A stretch of DNA of 23,654 nucleotides from a virus. Positions 1 to 18,323 of this stretch are shown here, piece after piece. The notes below the pieces were generated by a model. The model was not told the origin of the DNA. It ran no database searches and saw only the letters and a program-made list of their open reading frames with translations. Every line of letters begins with the position of its first letter. The first letter of the stretch is position 1. Where the stretch lies: IMG/VR virus record IMGVR_UViG_3300042539_002075, positions 1 through 23,654 of that record; one strand, written 5' to 3'. The position numbers and the translations under genes are program-made.

Positions 1-905
1 TTTAAATTAGGATTATCTTCAATAATTGTATTGATTATAAACTCTTTTCTTTCTTTGTCGGGTCTATTTAATATCCATGGAAAAACACATTCAATTGAAC
101 CTGCAACTATTATTCCTCCCGCAATTGCACTTGGTACTTGGTTTATAACCGATTTACCAACTTTTTTAGGTTCTTGTTGTAATAATTCTAAAGCCTTATT
201 AAATTCTAATTTTTTTGAGTTTACCCAATTTTTTATTTTATTATTAGGTATTAATTCTATCTTACCTAATAGATTTTTTAAAGTTTCAATTCCGTTTGTT
301 ATCCAAGTTTTAAAAGACCCTTTAGGTCCGAACAAACTTTTTATCATTTCCCAAGCGCCTTTTGCGGTTTTACCTAATAATTTTAATAAACCTCCCGTCA
401 AAATAAAAGCAATATCTTCGACAGAATTTTTAAACCCAACATTAGTACTAAAATGATATATAAACCAATTTTCTTCTGAATCAAATGGTTTGTCTTCCCA
501 TTTATTAATCATTATTGATAAATCATTTATTAATATTGCAATATCCAAAGCCGCTATTGCGATAGGAGCACCTATTTCCGCACCAAGTATTGAAATTACT
601 ACTTGAGCAACCATCCCTCCTGTTGTAAATAAAAGTTCTCTTATTTTTAACAAAGCGTCTGAAACATCTTTAGCGGTTATTGGGATTTCGTCTGATTCTC
701 CAAAACCTCCACCTCTACGTCTACCTTTATAGTTTGGGTCAGCATATTGTGATACCCCACCTGATGAGGGAGTTGAAACTGAAGTTAAAGGTTGTTCAAA
801 AATAAAATTATAATTTTCGTTCAAAGTCTTTGAACTATCATAGTTCATAAATAATAATATTTTATTTAGTTCTTTGTTACTTTGAATATTTTTTTTATAT
901 ATCAT
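1..905 (-). CDS. Partial tagged protein with hydrophobic helices, runs off left edge
   Basis: The reading frame is open from an ATG at 905 to the left edge, giving 301 residues without a stop; the C-terminus is outside the window. A second possible start is at 848 (MNYDSSKTLNENYNF). Residues 1-35 carry the Asn/Lys-rich leader with 'TLNE' seen in variant form on other proteins here. A Gly/Arg-rich linker (about 60-70) follows, then long hydrophobic or amphipathic stretches at about 92-128 (Gly/Ala/Ile-rich), 163-180 and 258-280, which could be membrane helices. I do not recognise the family. A virion-internal or membrane-active protein is possible, but that is inference. An ATATTTATT element lies 5 nt upstream of the ATG. 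Confidence 0.8.
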   Translation of the reverse strand, partial: MIYKKNIQSNKELNKILLFMNYDSSKTLNENYNFIFEQPLTSVSTPSSGGVSQYADPNYKGRRRGGGFGESDEIPITAKDVSDALLKIRELLFTTGGMVAQVVISILGAEIGAPIAIAALDIAILINDLSIMINKWEDKPFDSEENWFIYHFSTNVGFKNSVEDIAFILTGGLLKLLGKTAKGAWEMIKSLFGPKGSFKTWITNGIETLKNLLGKIELIPNNKIKNWVNSKKLEFNKALELLQQEPKKVGKSVINQVPSAIAGGIIVAGSIECVFPWILNRPDKERKEFIINTIIEDNPNL

Positions 906-5334: not shown

Positions 5335-6240
5335 TTAATAAATATCATTATTCGGTTTAATTTTATGTTTCCATTTGTTAGTAAGATTAACTAATCCATT
5401 ATCAATCAATAGTAATAATTCCTTTTTATTAATATTTTTAATATTTGTAACTTTGAATTTATATCCGTTTTCTAAACAAAATTTTTCAGCGTAAAGAAAT
5501 TTACTTTGATTTAAAAGTGTTTTTTGTAATTTTTTCGGTTTCAATTCAACAATGTATTTGTTTTCAATTATAAAATCGGGGAAATAATTCCTATTAACAC
5601 CATTGAATTCATATTCTATTTTATACTTTTCTTTTTCACCCGTTTCCCAAACTAAATTAAATCTTTCAATAACATTAATCATATAACTTAACTCAAGTAA
5701 ACTTCTGAAAAACCAATTTTTATACCGCCCACAGATTCCATTACCTGAATTTTTAGGTGAAGGTCTACCAAACATCTTATTTTTTTCCCCTGAATTTAAA
5801 AATGATTGTTTTAATTTTAATTCTTCCATTTTTTCATCGGCAATTTTTTTTCCATATTTTTTGAACCAAACATCATATACCGTTTTTCCGTACATCGGAT
5901 TTTTTTTTCCTTTGGTCAAATCTGAAATTTTTTTTCTAAATTTTTCAGTCTTATATGATGAATAATTTCTATTTTCAATAATTTTACGTTTAGTTTCCTC
6001 AGTATGTTTTTTTCCATAAAAAGGATTTAAACTCCCTGTTTTACCCCACATAGGATTATTTTTACCTTTAAACCTTTCTGATAATTTTTCTTTATAACCT
6101 TCGGGTCTATTTTTTTTAGTACTACAACTTTTACAATCCCTATTATTATTTTGTGCAGCATTTAAATTATATTTGTTAGAATACTTTATAATCCTTTCAC
6201 AAGTTGGACATTTCCTTTCTAATTTTGTTTCTACATTCAT
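5335..6240 (-). CDS. NUMOD3 / PD-(D/E)xK homing endonuclease
   Basis: A 301-aa free-standing homing endonuclease candidate. Residues 11-39 hold a C-x2-C...C-x2-C zinc finger (C11, C14, C36, C39). NUMOD3-type DNA-binding repeats follow at about 57-80 ('GKNNPMWGKTGSLNPFYGKKH'-like), 108-121 ('GKKNPMYGKTV') and weakly at 151-162. The C-terminal part (about 170-265) looks like a PD-(D/E)xK nuclease: E183, 'YFPDFIIENKYIVELKPKK' giving P221-D222...E232-x-K234. This type cleaves DNA to copy itself into endonuclease-free alleles. It is divergent from the interrupted kinase gene at 6306 (65 nt apart), whose insert could mark its target. Its stop and last codons overlap the promoter-like element of the downstream gene. 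Confidence 0.85.
   Translation of the reverse strand: MNVETKLERKCPTCERIIKYSNKYNLNAAQNNNRDCKSCSTKKNRPEGYKEKLSERFKGKNNPMWGKTGSLNPFYGKKHTEETKRKIIENRNYSSYKTEKFRKKISDLTKGKKNPMYGKTVYDVWFKKYGKKIADEKMEELKLKQSFLNSGEKNKMFGRPSPKNSGNGICGRYKNWFFRSLLELSYMINVIERFNLVWETGEKEKYKIEYEFNGVNRNYFPDFIIENKYIVELKPKKLQKTLLNQSKFLYAEKFCLENGYKFKVTNIKNINKKELLLLIDNGLVNLTNKWKHKIKPNNDIY
5337..5345 (-). promoter_or_regulatory. ATATTTATT element inside the 3' end of the endonuclease gene
   Basis: Reads G-ATATTTATT-A on the minus strand. The bases encode the last residues and stop of the endonuclease (Asp-Ile-Tyr-stop). The element ends 12 nt before the ATG at 5324 and supports that start. Confidence 0.4.
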
Positions 6241-9329: not shown

Positions 9330-10157
9330 ATGAAACAAACAAAAATCTACAATGAATTAGTACAAAAATTAAGGTATTTTTTCTTGATGAAAGGATTCAT
9401 CGAAGTACCAACACAATCAAGACTCTCAATTTTGGCGGCATGTGAAAATCCACATTCTGTTAAAACATTTGAGTATAGTGGTAAAATTTGGCCATTACCA
9501 CAAACAGGACAAATGTGGTTAGAATATGAATTATTAAAGAATCCTGAATGGTCAGGCGTGTTTTGTGTTTCAACTTCGTACAGGGAAGAAAAAAATCCAA
9601 TACCAGGTCGTCATGAATTAATTTTCCCTATGTTTGAATTTGAATCCAAAGGAGGTATCAGTGAATTACAAAAATTAGAAAAAGAATTGTTACTTTTCTT
9701 AGGTTTTGGAACCCCAAAATACGTAACTTATGAAGGTATGTGTGCGGAATATGAAACTCAAATTTTAGAAAATGAACATGAAACAAAAATGTGGCACGAG
9801 ATAGGTGATGTAATTTCACTCGAACATTTTCCGTTGAGGACAAATCCATTTTGGAACATGAAACATGGAACTAACAATGTATTTAACAAAATTGACGTTA
9901 TTCTTTTTGGTCAAGAAACAATTGGAAGTGCCGAAAGAAGTTGTGATGTTGGAAAAATGAGAGAAATGTTTTATACCATTGAGAATGGTAAATACTGTGA
10001 TAAATTGTTCGAACTTTTTGGAAAAGAAAGAGTTGAAAAAGAGTTAGAAGAATTCTTATCTTTAACTTTTTTTCAAAGATTCGGTGGTGGAATCGGTTTA
10101 ACTCGATTAGCAAGAGCATATGAAATGAATATGATGGATTTGGAAGTCACAAAATAA
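9330..10157 (+). CDS. Class II aminoacyl-tRNA synthetase-like core (Asp/Asn/Lys type)
   Basis: A 275-aa protein made only of a class II synthetase catalytic core. Motif 2 is 'STSYREEKNPIPGRHELIFPMFEFE' (R85, E86/E87, R94-H95, F102-E103-F104), motif 3 is 'GGGIGLTRLARAY' (Arg about 259), and 'ETIGSAERS' precedes it. These fit class IIb enzymes (AspRS/AsnRS/LysRS). Free synthetases of this class are much longer because of an N-terminal OB-fold anticodon-binding domain, which is absent here. Relatives of the same shape include the archaeal asparagine synthetase related to AsnRS, AsnA, and the LysRS paralogue EpmA, so the product may make an amino acid or modify a protein rather than charge tRNA. 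It has its own promoter and leader. Confidence 0.8.
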   Translation: MKQTKIYNELVQKLRYFFLMKGFIEVPTQSRLSILAACENPHSVKTFEYSGKIWPLPQTGQMWLEYELLKNPEWSGVFCVSTSYREEKNPIPGRHELIFPMFEFESKGGISELQKLEKELLLFLGFGTPKYVTYEGMCAEYETQILENEHETKMWHEIGDVISLEHFPLRTNPFWNMKHGTNNVFNKIDVILFGQETIGSAERSCDVGKMREMFYTIENGKYCDKLFELFGKERVEKELEEFLSLTFFQRFGGGIGLTRLARAYEMNMMDLEVTK

Positions 10158-10174: not shown

Positions 10175-10348
10175 GTGGATAAAAAAAATATATCAGTCCA
10201 TACGAAATGGGAAGTCGTTTATGAAGACGACTTTACCATTTCTACATGGAAATATAACAGTAAAGTAAGTCGAATTAATCCAGTTGAGGTGTTAATAACA
10301 TATAAAACTGAACCACCTGAAACTAAAAAAAGAAAGAAAAAAAGTTAA
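10175..10348 (+). CDS. Small basic-tailed protein, GTG start
   Basis: A 57-aa reading frame: (M)DKKNISVHTKWEVVYEDDFT..., with a beta-rich middle ('WEVVYEDDFTISTWKYN', 'NPVEVLITYKTE') and a Lys/Arg tail (PETKKRKKKS). It has no ATG. The GTG at 10175 lies just after a good host-type promoter, which would give a nearly leaderless mRNA. The TAA at 10346-10348 overlaps the end of the convergent coiled-coil gene by 4 bases. The amino acid pattern (aromatic strands, charged tail) is more protein-like than chance translation. No family recognised. Confidence 0.55.
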   Translation: MDKKNISVHTKWEVVYEDDFTISTWKYNSKVSRINPVEVLITYKTEPPETKKRKKKS

Positions 10349-11022
10349 TCTTTTTTTTCTGACGCGTATTTAACACCCATTATTGTACCAACAATACTAA
10401 AAGCGTTAGTTAGTAAAATACCAAACATATTACTCCAAGTTGAACCGATAATTTGAGTGTCTTTGTTGTAAAAGATTGCGGTCATATATAAAATCGTAGT
10501 CACTATACCAACACCAACAATTACAAATAACGCCATTCTTACAATTGTATTAATCAATTGAAACTGAGTTCTTTTTTGTAAAACATCAAGGTCATTTTCG
10601 GCGTTTTTCTTAGCATTTTCAGCATCAATTCGAGCAATTTCTGACTTGGCCATTTCCTCTTTAAGTTCCTGACCCATTCGTTCATTATCTTCTTTCCATG
10701 CTATGAGTTCCCTGTTCTGAAGTTCAATTTGATTTTTAGATTCCTCAACATTTTTAAGAGTTGTCTGTAATTCGGACATAATTTTTGCATTTTCCAAATT
10801 AAGGTCGGATAATTCTTTATTTTGTAATTGAACTTGTTTAGTAATTTCTAAACGTTTTTTTCTATTATCTTTATCTTTCTCAGAACAAGTTTTTAAATAT
10901 TTTTCAAACTCAACATCACCCTCAGCATCAAATAATTTAACAATATTACCTTCTAAAGCAATGCTTTTAGAATTTAATAATTCAATTAATTCGTTTTTAG
11001 TTTCTTTGTTGAGTTTAACCAT
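10345..11022 (-). CDS. Coiled-coil protein with two C-terminal membrane helices
   Basis: A 225-aa protein, last gene of the signalling operon. Residues about 50-150 form a long heptad-rich coiled coil (KQVQLQNKELSDLNLENAKI, 'NQIELQNRELIAWKEDNERM', 'AENAKKNAENDLDVLQKR'). Two membrane helices follow, about 157-183 and 195-217, and a short charged end (YASEKKD). It has no enzymatic motif. Its ATG overlaps the response regulator stop by one base, so the two are coupled. The repeated 'LQN(K/R)EL' units recall coiled coils linking signalling domains. It could be the membrane-bound partner or output of the receiver, as inference from operon position only. Confidence 0.75.
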   Translation of the reverse strand: MVKLNKETKNELIELLNSKSIALEGNIVKLFDAEGDVEFEKYLKTCSEKDKDNRKKRLEITKQVQLQNKELSDLNLENAKIMSELQTTLKNVEESKNQIELQNRELIAWKEDNERMGQELKEEMAKSEIARIDAENAKKNAENDLDVLQKRTQFQLINTIVRMALFVIVGVGIVTTILYMTAIFYNKDTQIIGSTWSNMFGILLTNAFSIVGTIMGVKYASEKKD

Positions 11023-11453
11023 TACTTATACACTTTAAATGGTGCGGTTCTATTTTTATAACCTTCGTAATCTTTTCTAAACTCTTCTAAACGAGGTTCA
11101 ATGTCGTCAGATTTTATTATCCAAAATTGAGCTCCCGCTTGTACTGCCTTAGCTTGTTCTTCCGATTCGTTACTCGAAGATATAATACCTATAACTACGT
11201 TATTACCATACTCAAAATTAACCTTACGGATAAGTTCAATACCATCAAAGGATGAACCTATAATATTAAGGTCAACGAATACACATTCAGGTTTACCATT
11301 TGAGTTTTTTTGCCAATCGGCGAATAATTTAGCGGCCTCATCAGAACTATTTAAACTTTTTAATGACAATGTAATGTCTAATAAGGAACAACTATCCTCA
11401 AAAACCAAATGGAATAAATCCTCATCATCAACTAATAAAATTGAATCAATCAT
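11022..11453 (-). CDS. Stand-alone response regulator receiver (CheY-like)
   Basis: A 143-aa single receiver domain. The acidic pocket is D9-D10-E11 ('LLVDDED'), the phosphoacceptor is D61 ('CVFVDLN'), the switch Ser is S92 or S93 ('GIISSS') and the conserved Lys is K114 ('FWIIKSD'). No DNA-binding or other output domain follows, so the signal must pass by protein contact. It lies 13 nt downstream of the histidine kinase and overlaps the coiled-coil gene, which makes the kinase its likely phosphodonor. All catalytic residues are kept, so it should be phosphorylatable. Confidence 0.9.
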   Translation of the reverse strand: MIDSILLVDDEDLFHLVFEDSCSLLDITLSLKSLNSSDEAAKLFADWQKNSNGKPECVFVDLNIIGSSFDGIELIRKVNFEYGNNVVIGIISSSNESEEQAKAVQAGAQFWIIKSDDIEPRLEEFRKDYEGYKNRTAPFKVYK

Positions 11454-11466
11454 TTTTTTCTTTTTT

Positions 11467-13398
11467 TTATTTTATTTTTATTTTCATTTTAGTTCCAACT
11501 TCATTTTTTTCACAGGTAATTATAAACCCGTGTTCTTCTAAAATTGCCACACAAATATTTAAACCTAACCCTGTACCAGATTCTTTTTGCCCTTCTTTTC
11601 TTGTATATGGTTTAGATAGATAATTAAAATCTTCTTGGGATATCCCTCTACCATTATCTTGTATTAAAATTGAGCCGTCCTCATAACTTATCTTAACAAA
11701 CTTTGTTTCAGAGTCGTTATACTTTAAACCATTTCTTATTAGGTTATCAACTGCCGTACAAAATAACGCCTCATTAATTTCGATTGTTGGTAAATTATCT
11801 TCTAACACCACTTGACTTATATAAGCGGTTGATGATAAATAATCAATAAGGATGTTTTTTACATTACATTCAGATTTGTTTAATACAACATCTTTCTTTA
11901 CAAGATTGGTAAACTCGTAAACACCTTTATAAACTTTTTGTGAATGTTTAAGTCCTTCCTTAATCATTTTAAGGGGTGATTCAATCTTTAATGATTCAAT
12001 ATCTTCAGGTTTCAATCTACGTTCTAATGAACTAAGTCCTCTTGGCATATAAGTATTAATACCTGAGTGCATATCATGTCTTAATATTTTGGCAGCGTGT
12101 TCTAAGTAAGTATTTTTCTTTTCAATCTCTTTTTTTTGTTCATAAGATTCGGTGATATCCGTAGCTATTTTCATAACACGATAAATCTTACCATCCATAC
12201 CAACGATAGGATTGTAAGTTGCTTGCAAATGTACTAAAGACCCATCTTTTTTAATTCTAACAATTTCACCAGAAAACAATACACCTTCATTTAATTTTTT
12301 CCAAAAAAGAGAATACTCGTCACTTTTTGCATATTCATCGCCTATAAAAATTCTATGGTGTTTTCCAATTACTTCATCTTGTGAATAATAACCCATAGTG
12401 TTTAAAAACAAGTCATTGGCAAAAATAATATTTCCTTCTAAATCAAACTCAATAACCGCATTAGATTTATTTATCGCATTCATTCTATTACGGATTTCCA
12501 CTTCCTTTTTCTTAATCTCCGTTACATCTTGTCTAATTGATGAAAATCCTTCTAACTTACCATTTTTATTAAATTTTGCTTTAATGTATGTATCAACGTA
12601 ATATAATTCTCCGGATTTTGATTTATTGGTAACAACATCATTCCATATCTCACCTTTCATTACTGTCTGATACATTTCACCCCAATAACCATCAGGTTGT
12701 AACCCTGAGTTAACAATATTATGGTCTTTACCCATTACTTCATCCAAAGACCATCCAGATACATCCTCAAATTTTTTATTAACGTATGTAATTTTACCAT
12801 TTTTATCTGTGACCGAAACAATTGCTGCACTATTTAAAAAATTTTCAGTTTCTTTATTTATCCTCAATAAATCATTCCCTTCTTTAATTGAATATGCAAA
12901 ACTATAAATAGATGATAATAATTGTGCAAAATCAATCTCAACATCATCCCATTCTCTAAATGTTAATGACTCAATACAAATCACCCCAATAGTTTCTCCA
13001 CGATAAATAACAGGGACATCTAACATTGATTTTACCCCAAGAGGTTTTAAATAATTTTCGGTAAAACAAGAAGTCGCTTGGTGTGTTTCGGCATCATTGG
13101 CAATGATAATTGGGTTTGATAATAACTCTAAAAAATAAGGTTGGAAATCTTTTTTATGTAGTGTTATATTCTGATACCAAGTATTTTCAGATTTAACATA
13201 TAATTGTTCACATATTATTTCAGATTTATCTTCATTATATAACCATATTGAACATCTATCAGCATCTATAGAATCTGTAACTTTTTTAGTTAGTACTTTA
13301 GCTCCTTCTGTAGTATTACCTTCATAAAATAAAGGATTATGTGATTGGAATATTAAAGTTTCATTTAATTTTTTAATATAATTAGAATGTTTTGACAT
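11467..13398 (-). CDS. Soluble GAF-PAS-PAS sensor histidine kinase
   Basis: A 643-aa protein. GAF domain about 25-172 ('DRCSIWLYNED', 'GVKSMLDVPVIYRGETIGVI', 'REWDDVEIDFAQLL'); PAS1 about 183-297 ('FEDVSGWSLDEVMGKDHNIV', ending 'SIRQDVTEIKK'); PAS2 about 305-418 (ending 'MKIATDITESYEQ'); coiled linker; phosphoacceptor region 'AAKILRHDMHSGINTYMPRG' with H441 likely; HATPase domain about 535-643 with the N box (D551, N552, N556, N561), G1 DNGRGI (581-586) and G2 GTGLGL (608-613). No transmembrane segment or signal peptide is seen, so it should sense a cytoplasmic cue. The sequence is complete with all ATP-binding boxes, unlike a decaying captured gene. Phage-borne histidine kinases are uncommon. 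It heads the leftward operon and has an ATATTTATT element 3 nt upstream. Confidence 0.92.
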   Translation of the reverse strand: MSKHSNYIKKLNETLIFQSHNPLFYEGNTTEGAKVLTKKVTDSIDADRCSIWLYNEDKSEIICEQLYVKSENTWYQNITLHKKDFQPYFLELLSNPIIIANDAETHQATSCFTENYLKPLGVKSMLDVPVIYRGETIGVICIESLTFREWDDVEIDFAQLLSSIYSFAYSIKEGNDLLRINKETENFLNSAAIVSVTDKNGKITYVNKKFEDVSGWSLDEVMGKDHNIVNSGLQPDGYWGEMYQTVMKGEIWNDVVTNKSKSGELYYVDTYIKAKFNKNGKLEGFSSIRQDVTEIKKKEVEIRNRMNAINKSNAVIEFDLEGNIIFANDLFLNTMGYYSQDEVIGKHHRIFIGDEYAKSDEYSLFWKKLNEGVLFSGEIVRIKKDGSLVHLQATYNPIVGMDGKIYRVMKIATDITESYEQKKEIEKKNTYLEHAAKILRHDMHSGINTYMPRGLSSLERRLKPEDIESLKIESPLKMIKEGLKHSQKVYKGVYEFTNLVKKDVVLNKSECNVKNILIDYLSSTAYISQVVLEDNLPTIEINEALFCTAVDNLIRNGLKYNDSETKFVKISYEDGSILIQDNGRGISQEDFNYLSKPYTRKEGQKESGTGLGLNICVAILEEHGFIITCEKNEVGTKMKIKIK

Positions 13399-13401
13399 GT
13401 C

Positions 13402-13410
13402 AATAAATAT
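13402..13410 (-). promoter_or_regulatory. ATATTTATT element upstream of the histidine kinase
   Basis: Reads C-ATATTTATT-G on the minus strand and ends 3 nt before the ATG at 13398. If this is a promoter, the mRNA would have almost no leader. Confidence 0.45.
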
Positions 13411-13445
13411 GTTAAAATTTCATTAACTATTTATTTTATTTTAAG

Positions 13446-13454
13446 ATATTTATT
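13446..13454 (+). promoter_or_regulatory. ATATTTATT element upstream of the endolysin
   Basis: G-ATATTTATT-G, 15 nt before the ATG at 13470. It is divergent from the histidine kinase element with 35 nt between them, so signalling operon and endolysin may be switched on together. Confidence 0.45.
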
Positions 13455-13469
13455 GTAAATTAAAACTTT

Positions 13470-14072
13470 ATGATAAACATAGAAAAACTAAAAGGTCACG
13501 TACCTGACGCGGTATACAATCAAATCCAGGATACTGCAACAAAATTTAACATTACTAATGATTTGAGATTAGCTCACTTCTTAGCACAATGTTCACATGA
13601 ATCGGGTAACTTTAAAGCCGTCTCTGAAAACCTAAACTATTCTTCAGACGGATTAAAAAAAATATTTCCGAAATATTTCCCCGGAACACTTTCTGAGTCT
13701 TACGCAAGAAACCCTGAAAAAATCGCTGCTAGAGTTTATGGTGGTAGAATGGGAAATGGTGATGAAACTACTAAAGAGGGTTTCAAATTCCGTGGCAGAG
13801 GTTACATCCAATTAACCGGAAAAAACAACTATACAAACTTTACAAAATTTATAGGTGAGGACTGTGTATCTAATCCTGATTTAGTCGCAACAAAATATCC
13901 ATTAGCATCTGCGGCGTTCTTTTTCAATAATAATAATCTTTGGTCTATTTGTGATAAGGGAGCGACTGACGCAGTGGTAACTGAAGTTACAAAAAGAGTT
14001 AATGGTGGAAAAATTGGTTTGGTCGATAGAATCAAACATTTTAAACACTTTCATGAATTATTATCTAAATAA
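13470..14072 (+). CDS. GH19-family endolysin (chitinase-like lysozyme)
   Basis: A 200-aa single-domain glycoside hydrolase family 19 protein, the chitinase-like class used by phages as muramidase. Key motifs: 'LAHFLAQCSHESGNF' with catalytic E44, 'SENLNYSSDGLKKIFPKYF' with the second acidic residue E53, 'IAARVYGGRMGNGDET', 'FRGRGYIQLTGKNNY' and 'VTKRVNGGKIGLVDR'. No signal peptide or extra cell-wall-binding domain is present, so it needs a holin to reach the peptidoglycan. The length is normal for phage GH19 lysozymes. It is followed directly by a terminator, so it is a one-gene unit. Confidence 0.92.
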   Translation: MINIEKLKGHVPDAVYNQIQDTATKFNITNDLRLAHFLAQCSHESGNFKAVSENLNYSSDGLKKIFPKYFPGTLSESYARNPEKIAARVYGGRMGNGDETTKEGFKFRGRGYIQLTGKNNYTNFTKFIGEDCVSNPDLVATKYPLASAAFFFNNNNLWSICDKGATDAVVTEVTKRVNGGKIGLVDRIKHFKHFHELLSK

Positions 14073-14100
14073 AAAAATCCCTCTTAATTGAGGGATTTTT
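14073..14100. terminator. Bidirectional rho-independent terminator
   Basis: AAAAATCCCTC (14073-14083), TTAATT loop, GAGGGATTTTT (14090-14100). It lies between the endolysin stop (14072) and the end of the leftward phosphatase (14105), with T-runs on both strands. Confidence 0.85.
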
Positions 14101-17045: not shown

Positions 17046-18323
17046 ATGGTTCTTCAAGAAAAACTTTCCCTAATACCCAAATCCTCGGGTTGTTATCTTT
17101 TCAAAGATGAGAAAAACCAAATAATTTATGTTGGTAAATCTAAATATTTACCCAACAGAGTCATGTCTTATTTCAGGGAAAACCATGATGATGAAAAAGT
17201 AAAAGTACTACGTGAAAAAATACGTGACGTTGATTTTGTAACAACTATTAATGAAAGTGAAGCTCTTTTACTTGAAGATGACTTAATTAAGTTATATCGT
17301 CCAAAATTCAATATTAAAGGTAAAGATGATAGAAGTCGTAGATGGTACATTGGTTTGACGGGTGGTGATTTTCCAAAATTAGAAGTATTTCCAAAACTTG
17401 AAGAAGGTATTGAAGTTTTGGGTGAATTTACAAACAGTAACACTTGTTATGAGGTTTATGAAACTATTCACAATGTGATTAGTCTTAGAACTTGTTCTTA
17501 CAACTTGAGTAAATCAAATATTGAAACACAAAAATTCAGACCTTGTTTAGACTTTCACATTGGAAAATGTGACGCTCCTTGTTCAGGTGATATTGACAAG
17601 TTTGTTTATCATGAAAATGTTAAAATGGTTCGTGAACTATTTGAATTCAAATTTGATAATATCGAATCCAAACTAAAAAAAATACTTAATGAGTATTCTA
17701 AAAGATTAGAGTTTGAGAAATGTGAAAAATTCAAACACAAACTCGAATATTTTGTTGACCTAAAAAAACTTTTAGAACCTTTGAGAGTAAAACATGTTAT
17801 CGAACTTTCTAAAAACTTAAAGACTAAACTTGGTTTAAAAAACACACCGTTAATTGTTGAGGCATTTGACAATTCTCACCACGCTGGTGACTGTCAAGTG
17901 TCTTGTTCTGTAAGATATGTTAATGGTTTACCTGAAAAAAATTCATACAGAAAATTCAATATTAAAACTGTAGAAGGTCCTGACGATTACGCATCTTTTG
18001 ATGAGGTACTCAACAGACGTTTAAAAAGACTTATGAAAGAAAAAGGTGTTCTACCATCCATGATTCTTATTGATGGTGGTAAAGGTCAACTAAACGTTGC
18101 AATCAAAGTACTTCAAGAACTTGATTTGTTTGACAAAATTGACTTAATATCAATATCAAAAAATGACAACCACAAGTCAGATACCATACATTTGACTAAT
18201 GGTCAGTCCATAAAAATGGAACATGAAGAAAGTTTTTTTCAACTTGCAAGAATTCAAGATGAAGTACATAGATTTACTATTAATTTTCACAGAAAAAAAC
18301 GTAATAAAAAGTTGATTAGTTAA
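17046..18323 (+). CDS. uvrC: UvrC-like nuclease lacking the C-terminal HhH domain
   Basis: A 425-aa relative of UvrC, the nucleotide-excision repair nuclease that cuts both sides of a lesion. N-terminal GIY-YIG domain ('GCYLFKDEKNQIIYVGKS', R38, 'NESEALLLEDDLIK'), cysteine cluster ('RTCSYN', 'RPCLDFHIGKCDAPC'), a middle UVR-like helical part, and the RNase H-like domain with D275 ('AFDNSHHAGD'), DDY (313-315), 'LIDGGKGQL' (D343) and 'DEVHRFTINFHRKKR'. Both nuclease centres look intact. Cellular UvrC (about 600 aa) continues with a helix-hairpin-helix domain needed for the 5' cut; here the gene stops just after 'HRKKRNKKLIS'. Short UvrC forms are known in some phages. It has its own host-type promoter. 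Confidence 0.9.
   Translation: MVLQEKLSLIPKSSGCYLFKDEKNQIIYVGKSKYLPNRVMSYFRENHDDEKVKVLREKIRDVDFVTTINESEALLLEDDLIKLYRPKFNIKGKDDRSRRWYIGLTGGDFPKLEVFPKLEEGIEVLGEFTNSNTCYEVYETIHNVISLRTCSYNLSKSNIETQKFRPCLDFHIGKCDAPCSGDIDKFVYHENVKMVRELFEFKFDNIESKLKKILNEYSKRLEFEKCEKFKHKLEYFVDLKKLLEPLRVKHVIELSKNLKTKLGLKNTPLIVEAFDNSHHAGDCQVSCSVRYVNGLPEKNSYRKFNIKTVEGPDDYASFDEVLNRRLKRLMKEKGVLPSMILIDGGKGQLNVAIKVLQELDLFDKIDLISISKNDNHKSDTIHLTNGQSIKMEHEESFFQLARIQDEVHRFTINFHRKKRNKKLIS

Follow-up and report, generated by a model that had tools for sequence, protein, structure and literature searches.

A large group of uncultured bacterial viruses carries its own three-protein relay, usually beside a gene for a wall-dissolving enzyme. 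This suggests that they read conditions first and time the bursting of the cell accordingly. We analysed this relay in IMG/VR virus record IMGVR_UViG_3300042539_002075, a 23.7-kb fragment (positions 1 to 23,654, hereafter the window), where genes for a histidine kinase (HK), a response regulator (RR) and a coiled-coil membrane protein (CC) follow one another and a GH19 endolysin gene diverges from them (Table 1). With moderate confidence, we regard the trio as a three-component phosphorelay, specific to phages, by which the timing of host lysis is set or gated. The original prediction, made from the letters of the window, had described a complete three-gene operon with a 13-nt gap, a 1-nt overlap and a divergent endolysin. 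All of this matches the sequence: the three open reading frames (ORFs) lie together on the minus strand, HK and RR are 13 nt apart, the RR stop and the CC start share one nucleotide in a TAATG junction, and the gene on the other side of the intergenic region encodes a GH19 protein.

An obligate three-gene unit of large viruses

Scans of IMG/VR returned at least 581 relatives of RR, at least 592 of HK and 247 of CC. The main working set comprised 106 distinct RR+CC pairs from the loci that were fetched, and an additional, more distant set of loci was reached via a CC of 43% identity. The search for the same trio in other phages, which had been proposed as a check, thus found it in more than 100 distinct viral loci. 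The contigs are large (up to 322 kb) and often T4-like, with a T4-type gp23 capsid gene above cut-off in 15 of the 22 larger ones. Across 212 loci with RR and CC, RR never occurred without CC and HK never without RR, contig ends excepted, so that the trio behaves as the single unit it had been taken for. HK and RR lie side by side in the same orientation and are inherited together in phage genomes, as in a complete phage two-component system, and in 98 of 106 pairs the RR and CC genes share 1 or 4 nt. Each large contig holds a single RR and a single CC; beyond the one or two kinases of the trio, HATPase_c genes above cut-off are almost absent (contig G003 has one extra).

Synonymous differences are near saturation in all genes compared (proportion of synonymous differences ~0.7). 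Despite this, median amino-acid identity is 85% for RR, against 69% for the endolysin, 64% for HK and 58% for CC, and 75% for a neighbouring tRNA-ligase-like gene (20 copies only); RR is the most constrained of these proteins. CC is intact in two contigs that lack HK and RR, G022 (177 kb) and G023 (74 kb), both records being fragments, where an unrelated 427-aa gene stands directly upstream of CC in place of the HK-RR pair. CC therefore probably has a function of its own.

An origin as an unrelated bacterial chromosomal locus, or as a chimeric contig, had been named as what would undo the proposal and was rejected: the loci recur in viruses, CC was not found in plasmids, and its single match in GTDB genomes is a phage contig inside a metagenome-assembled genome, with PhoH-like, terminase-like and portal-like genes (names given from reading the sequence). 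Among 245 genomes from the phylum of that assembly, CC occurs in this assembly only; as the GTDB scan relied on two exact peptide patterns, it would miss a bacterial relative without them. From the style of the exported proteins we suspect that the hosts belong to the Bacteroidota. Records of isolated phages contained no match to RR or CC and no full-length match to HK, and kinship with kinases of isolated phages such as MW462191 'ParS' was rejected, the matches there being only partial, with less than 40% identity, and their contexts unrelated. The view that phages rarely carry a whole phosphorelay consequently holds for the isolate collection but not for this group, in which the trio is widespread. 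Its absence from isolates has so far kept it out of experimental reach.

A conserved kinase core and receiver with exchangeable sensors

The kinase had been read as a 643-aa GAF-PAS-PAS protein, and Pfam agrees, with matches to GAF, two PAS domains and HATPase_c. The Pfam HisKA model was not matched; the HK family profile aligns with HK853 structures over the DHp and CA domains. Residues H441, N552, N556, D581, G583, G585, G610 and G612 are invariant in 104 HKs, and HATPase_c was present in all 25 tested, so that by sequence the family has both the DHp phosphoacceptor histidine and the N, G1 and G2 boxes of a histidine kinase. RR matches Response_reg (4.6e-8, above cut-off), and its acidic pair (D9, D10), phosphoacceptor (D61), S92 and K114 are invariant in 90 relatives; the full set that characterizes a receiver domain (acidic pair, Asp, Ser/Thr, Lys) is thus in place, as claimed. 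Pfam found no output domain either, again as expected, and a role of RR as a transcription factor was rejected, 143 aa leaving no room for such a domain.

The kinase core (~430-643) is conserved, whereas the region before it varies, with GAF or PAS domains, up to four transmembrane (TM) helices or exported coiled coils, and total lengths of ~365-743 aa. No TM helix was predicted in the HK of the window, which is cytoplasmic as stated in the original prediction. This does not extend to most relatives: a TM helix before the core is missing from only about 12 of 104 HKs, which puts the soluble kinase of the window in a minority. In several loci a single RR is preceded by two kinases. In 18 loci an exported coiled-coil protein of ~205 aa without a Pfam match lies beside or between the kinases (e.g. 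L189:7605-8237), possibly as the periplasmic partner of an exported-sensor kinase.

One lineage (L216, L236, L237) has, all in one orientation and no more than ~10 nt apart, the genes for an amidase endolysin, HK, RR, a membrane protein, a microbial rhodopsin and CC, in this order. The rhodopsin (192 aa, L216:7547-8125; Bac_rhodopsin 3.8e-12) has proteorhodopsin and the viral rhodopsin OLPVRII as its PDB matches, and its place inside the operon makes a light input possible. Other genes are found between HK and RR. A YceI-like gene occurs there in L234:8025-8552 and L235:8030-8554 (PF04264, 2e-44 in L235), and a 240-aa ORF of cluster c105 in L203:8848-9570, L041:3144-3866 and L043:3324-4046. 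The latter starts MAYVYxHIRxDxNExFYIGIGSD, appears GIY-YIG-like by eye, and is probably a homing endonuclease within the operon.

The coiled-coil membrane protein

The reading of the third gene as a coiled-coil protein with two membrane helices was upheld by TM prediction. In an AlphaFold2 (AF2) model a short N-terminal helix is followed by a helix (37-184) that enters the membrane and by a second TM helix (mean pLDDT 85.7; with a pTM of 0.32 the packing of the helices is not to be trusted). Two TM helices were predicted in 86 of 103 CCs and three in the other 17. Topology, judged from flanking charges only, is probably N-in/C-in. The best conserved parts are TM2 (GILLTN.FSI.GTI.G.KY) and the cytoplasmic patch made up of E24-N26 and R54-L71. 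Between two fixed anchors the coiled coil measures 88, 81, 74, 60, 53 or 46 residues, and all 99 sequences measured differ solely by multiples of 7. Such heptad-only variation fits a register-locked rod that transmits a change, since a mere tether should tolerate any length.

CC had no match to Pfam, PDB or a named PHROG family. Its assignment to a known holin family, SLATT or another named family was rejected, the matches being sub-threshold, scattered and mostly of the coiled-coil kind. No fold match was found beyond one uncharacterised viral homologue; A0A6J5PRT3, from an uncultured Caudovirales phage, has 59% identity and the same predicted fold across the full length of CC, and is thus a member of the family already in databases, where no function is recorded for it.

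Association with lysis genes

Lysins were counted as GH19, M15_3 peptidase, Amidase_2, GH24, and peptidoglycan-binding and C201-type proteins similar to annotated endolysins. A lysin from one of these several unrelated families lies within five genes of the trio in 70 of the 89 loci whose context was adequate. Lysins stand at gene distance -1 in 35 of 87 loci and at +1 in 22 of 106; the frequency is near zero 6-15 genes away. The link of the trio to lysis, at which the original prediction had hinted from a single locus, therefore holds across lineages. Parsimony on a quick CC tree requires at least 23 changes of arrangement (the state without a lysin being counted) and at least 9 changes of lysin family. 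CC is directly followed by a lysin on the same strand in 20 loci, with gaps mostly of 10-23 nt (two loci show an apparent overlap, probably from a miscalled start codon), and this position next to an endolysin, as for a class II holin gene, would also fit a holin role for CC at those loci. A lysin precedes HK on the same strand in 3 loci (gaps of 9-12 nt), and the divergent arrangement of the window is found in 16. Among the 17 contigs with both GH19 and RR the two lie within 7 kb of each other in 13, compared with a mean of 1.56 under random placement and never more than 8 in 100,000 trials, although the contigs are related and this is no true P value.

In L231-L233 a lysozyme gene precedes HK, and in L232 and L233, which represent distant lineages, a second lysin-like gene also follows CC, giving the order lysozyme, HK, RR, CC, second lysin. 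In L228-L230 HK is directly preceded by two genes, one for a small membrane protein that looks holin-like by eye and one lipoprotein-like that looks spanin-like; Pfam does not confirm these readings.

A proposed relay and its alternatives

According to the proposed mechanism, the kinase of the window would read a cytoplasmic signal (a GAF/PAS ligand or redox state), while those of most relatives would read membrane or periplasmic signals. HK would autophosphorylate at H441 and pass the phosphate to D61 of RR. Because RR has neither a DNA-binding nor an enzymatic output it would act by binding, and CC, whose gene is translationally coupled to that of RR, is its likeliest partner. With its register-locked cytoplasmic coiled coil and membrane hairpin, CC would pass the state of RR to the membrane, either as a phosphorylation-controlled, holin-like hole-former or as an antiholin-like partner of a holin, upon which the endolysin would reach the wall. 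The signal could either trigger or delay lysis. That some lineages keep CC without HK or RR helps the case for CC as the putative effector. If this is true, these phages sense the host or environment and set burst time via a dedicated signalling system, the signals may be readable from the swapped sensor domains, and the RR-CC pair is a new control of the membrane lesion. More tentatively, and just short of what we would call probable, lysis would be run by a phosphorelay with interchangeable kinases (cytoplasmic GAF/PAS, membrane or exported, sometimes two per locus, and in one lineage accompanied by a rhodopsin), a near-invariant receiver switching a new class of coiled-coil membrane proteins that controls the lesion. 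Lysis would then follow a computed decision and not the clock of a holin.

Several observations weigh against control of lysis by the trio. No lysin lies within five genes in 19 of 89 loci; GH19 and RR are 18-58 kb apart in G005, G006, G016 and G017; the orphan CC of G022 is far from GH19; and the relatives of L219 adjoin structural genes and an outer-membrane-type protein, the lysin link being missing. No holin family matches CC above threshold (Phage_holin_9 reached 0.014, below cut-off, in 2 of 38 members). Canonical holins coexist with the trio in L141, L142, L210 and L217 (Phage_holin_4_1 stands beside it in the last three), so that CC is not simply the holin there and a partner role is favoured. 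The 19 loci without a nearby lysin would also be expected if the lysis region were simply tolerant of accessory genes and the trio had an unrelated late function, e.g. in host metabolism or stress control, and its other neighbours indeed include Hsp70, a metallophosphoesterase and the tRNA-ligase-like gene. We consider this unlikely, however, as a lysin is by far the commonest neighbour, the adjacency survives many rearrangements and lysin replacements, and the enrichment of GH19 near RR is seen in whole contigs.

It is likewise improbable that the trio is a sensor for superinfection by a second adsorbing phage or for envelope stress and modifies the membrane in response (exclusion, ion balance), with lysis altered only indirectly, as in lysis inhibition, and the position near lysis genes reflecting a shared late-expression block. 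The membrane or exported sensors of most relatives, the membrane hairpin at the end of CC and the exported coiled-coil protein beside the kinases would suit such a role, which nevertheless leaves the same-strand operons with unrelated lysin families, in both orders, unexplained. Least probable, and very unlikely in our view, is that HK or RR taps host two-component pathways as a phosphate donor, sink or decoy, CC serving to anchor RR at the membrane. Both proteins are catalytically intact by sequence and could cross-talk, and for the AgrC-like kinase of phage phiCDHM1, which comes without a regulator, a host-mediated response was proposed by its authors (PMC3901668). Here, in contrast, the kinase is always paired with RR, whose gene is the best conserved, a pattern that favours an internal cognate pair; the retention of CC without HK-RR would not be explained either. 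Setting or gating of lysis by the trio thus remains the reading we prefer, and with three genes plus an endolysin the system is small enough to be rebuilt in a laboratory host.

Comparison with known systems

HK and the receiver are known kinds of part. In canonical two-component systems of the CheY type a single-domain receiver acts by protein binding, and the trio resembles these in its HK core and receiver chemistry, intact as far as residues can tell, and in the lack of an output domain. It differs in being phage-encoded and linked to lysis genes, in having a new coiled-coil membrane protein as partner in the same operon, and in a receiver that is almost frozen while the sensors are swapped. 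Class II holins have two TM helices and an N-in/C-in topology. CC is similar in the two TM helices predicted for most members, its probably cytoplasmic ends and its position next to endolysin genes, but it is two to three times longer, has a large cytoplasmic coiled coil and lacks an above-threshold family match.

Lysis inhibition in T4, the known case of environmental control of phage lysis, works by direct periplasmic binding of the holin T and the antiholin RI, without a phosphorelay (PMC11413866). The environmental control of lysis time proposed here would likewise act at the inner membrane in T4-type phages, but through a phosphorelay, and CC showed no sequence relationship with T or RI. 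The Clostridioides phage phiCDHM1 carries agr genes from its host, including that for the AgrC-like kinase, without a response regulator and untied to lysis genes (PMC3901668); the trio shares with it a phage-encoded histidine kinase in a signalling cassette, but includes a receiver and is tied to lysis genes. A review of jumbo phages mentions only a divergent receiver domain, untied to kinases (PMC7824862). In the literature searched, which left subscription papers and preprints largely outside, we found no account of lysis control by a phage two-component system or phosphorelay, and no description of the CC family or of a phage-specific three-gene unit.

Layout of the window and neighbouring genes

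The element TTTTAA[C/G]ATATTTATTG stands once in each direction in the intergenic region between HK and the endolysin, with an exact match on either strand; it lies 3 nt upstream of the start of HK and 14 nt upstream of that of the endolysin. The promoter-like element that the two genes had been said to share is therefore real. The hint at lysis taken from it did not hold and was rejected as evidence of such a link, since 315 of the 1,701 genes in the trio loci have the TATTTAT core at 10-29 nt upstream, far more than at other positions; as a promoter motif it is general in these phages and tells nothing about lysis in particular. A host-type promoter pattern, TANNTTTG, occurred at chance level only. 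Directly after the endolysin gene, a terminator-like stem-loop in both directions (14073-14100) separates it from a convergent metallophosphoesterase gene.

Table 1. Genes, protein parts and intergenic element of the trio region in the window (protein parts in residues)
Feature	Position	Strand	Description and basis
HK	13398..11467	minus	643 aa; ORF and Pfam
HK domains	GAF 35-163; PAS ~189-290; PAS 314-417; DHp with H441; HATPase_c 546-642		without TM helix
RR	11453..11022	minus	143 aa; ORF and Response_reg
CC	11022..10345	minus	225 aa; ORF, without Pfam match
CC parts	TM hairpin ~160-178, ~199-217		N-terminal cap, ~110-residue cytoplasmic coiled coil, C-terminal two-TM hairpin; AF2 model, alignment and TM prediction
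Divergent intergenic region	13399..13469	both	TTTTAA[C/G]ATATTTATTG once per direction
GH19 endolysin	13470..14072	+	PF00182 1.2e-9; phrog_181 endolysin 4.7e-62

A frequent neighbour of the trio, at 9330-10157 (+) in the window, encodes a 275-aa class II tRNA-synthetase-like 'tRNA ligase' (phrog_29758) with 44-56% identity to proteins of Prochlorococcus phages P-SSM2, P-SSM5 and P-SSM7 and of huge phages; in some records the Prochlorococcus phage relatives overlap an annotated tRNA-Asn. A full-length Hsp70/DnaK gene (HSP70 2e-260) lies beside the trio at L189:4078-5949, and the DnaK cluster is present in 27 of 106 loci. At L228:9620-11221, directly downstream of CC, a 533-aa ankyrin-repeat protein is encoded that has a weak match to a nucleotide cyclase domain, below cut-off (8e-4). 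Further away in the window are a 425-aa phage UvrC-like nuclease with GIY-YIG and UvrC RNase H-like domains (17046-18323, +) and a gene that combines NUMOD3 repeats with a TnsA-like nuclease domain (5335-6240, -), an unusual architecture for a homing endonuclease.

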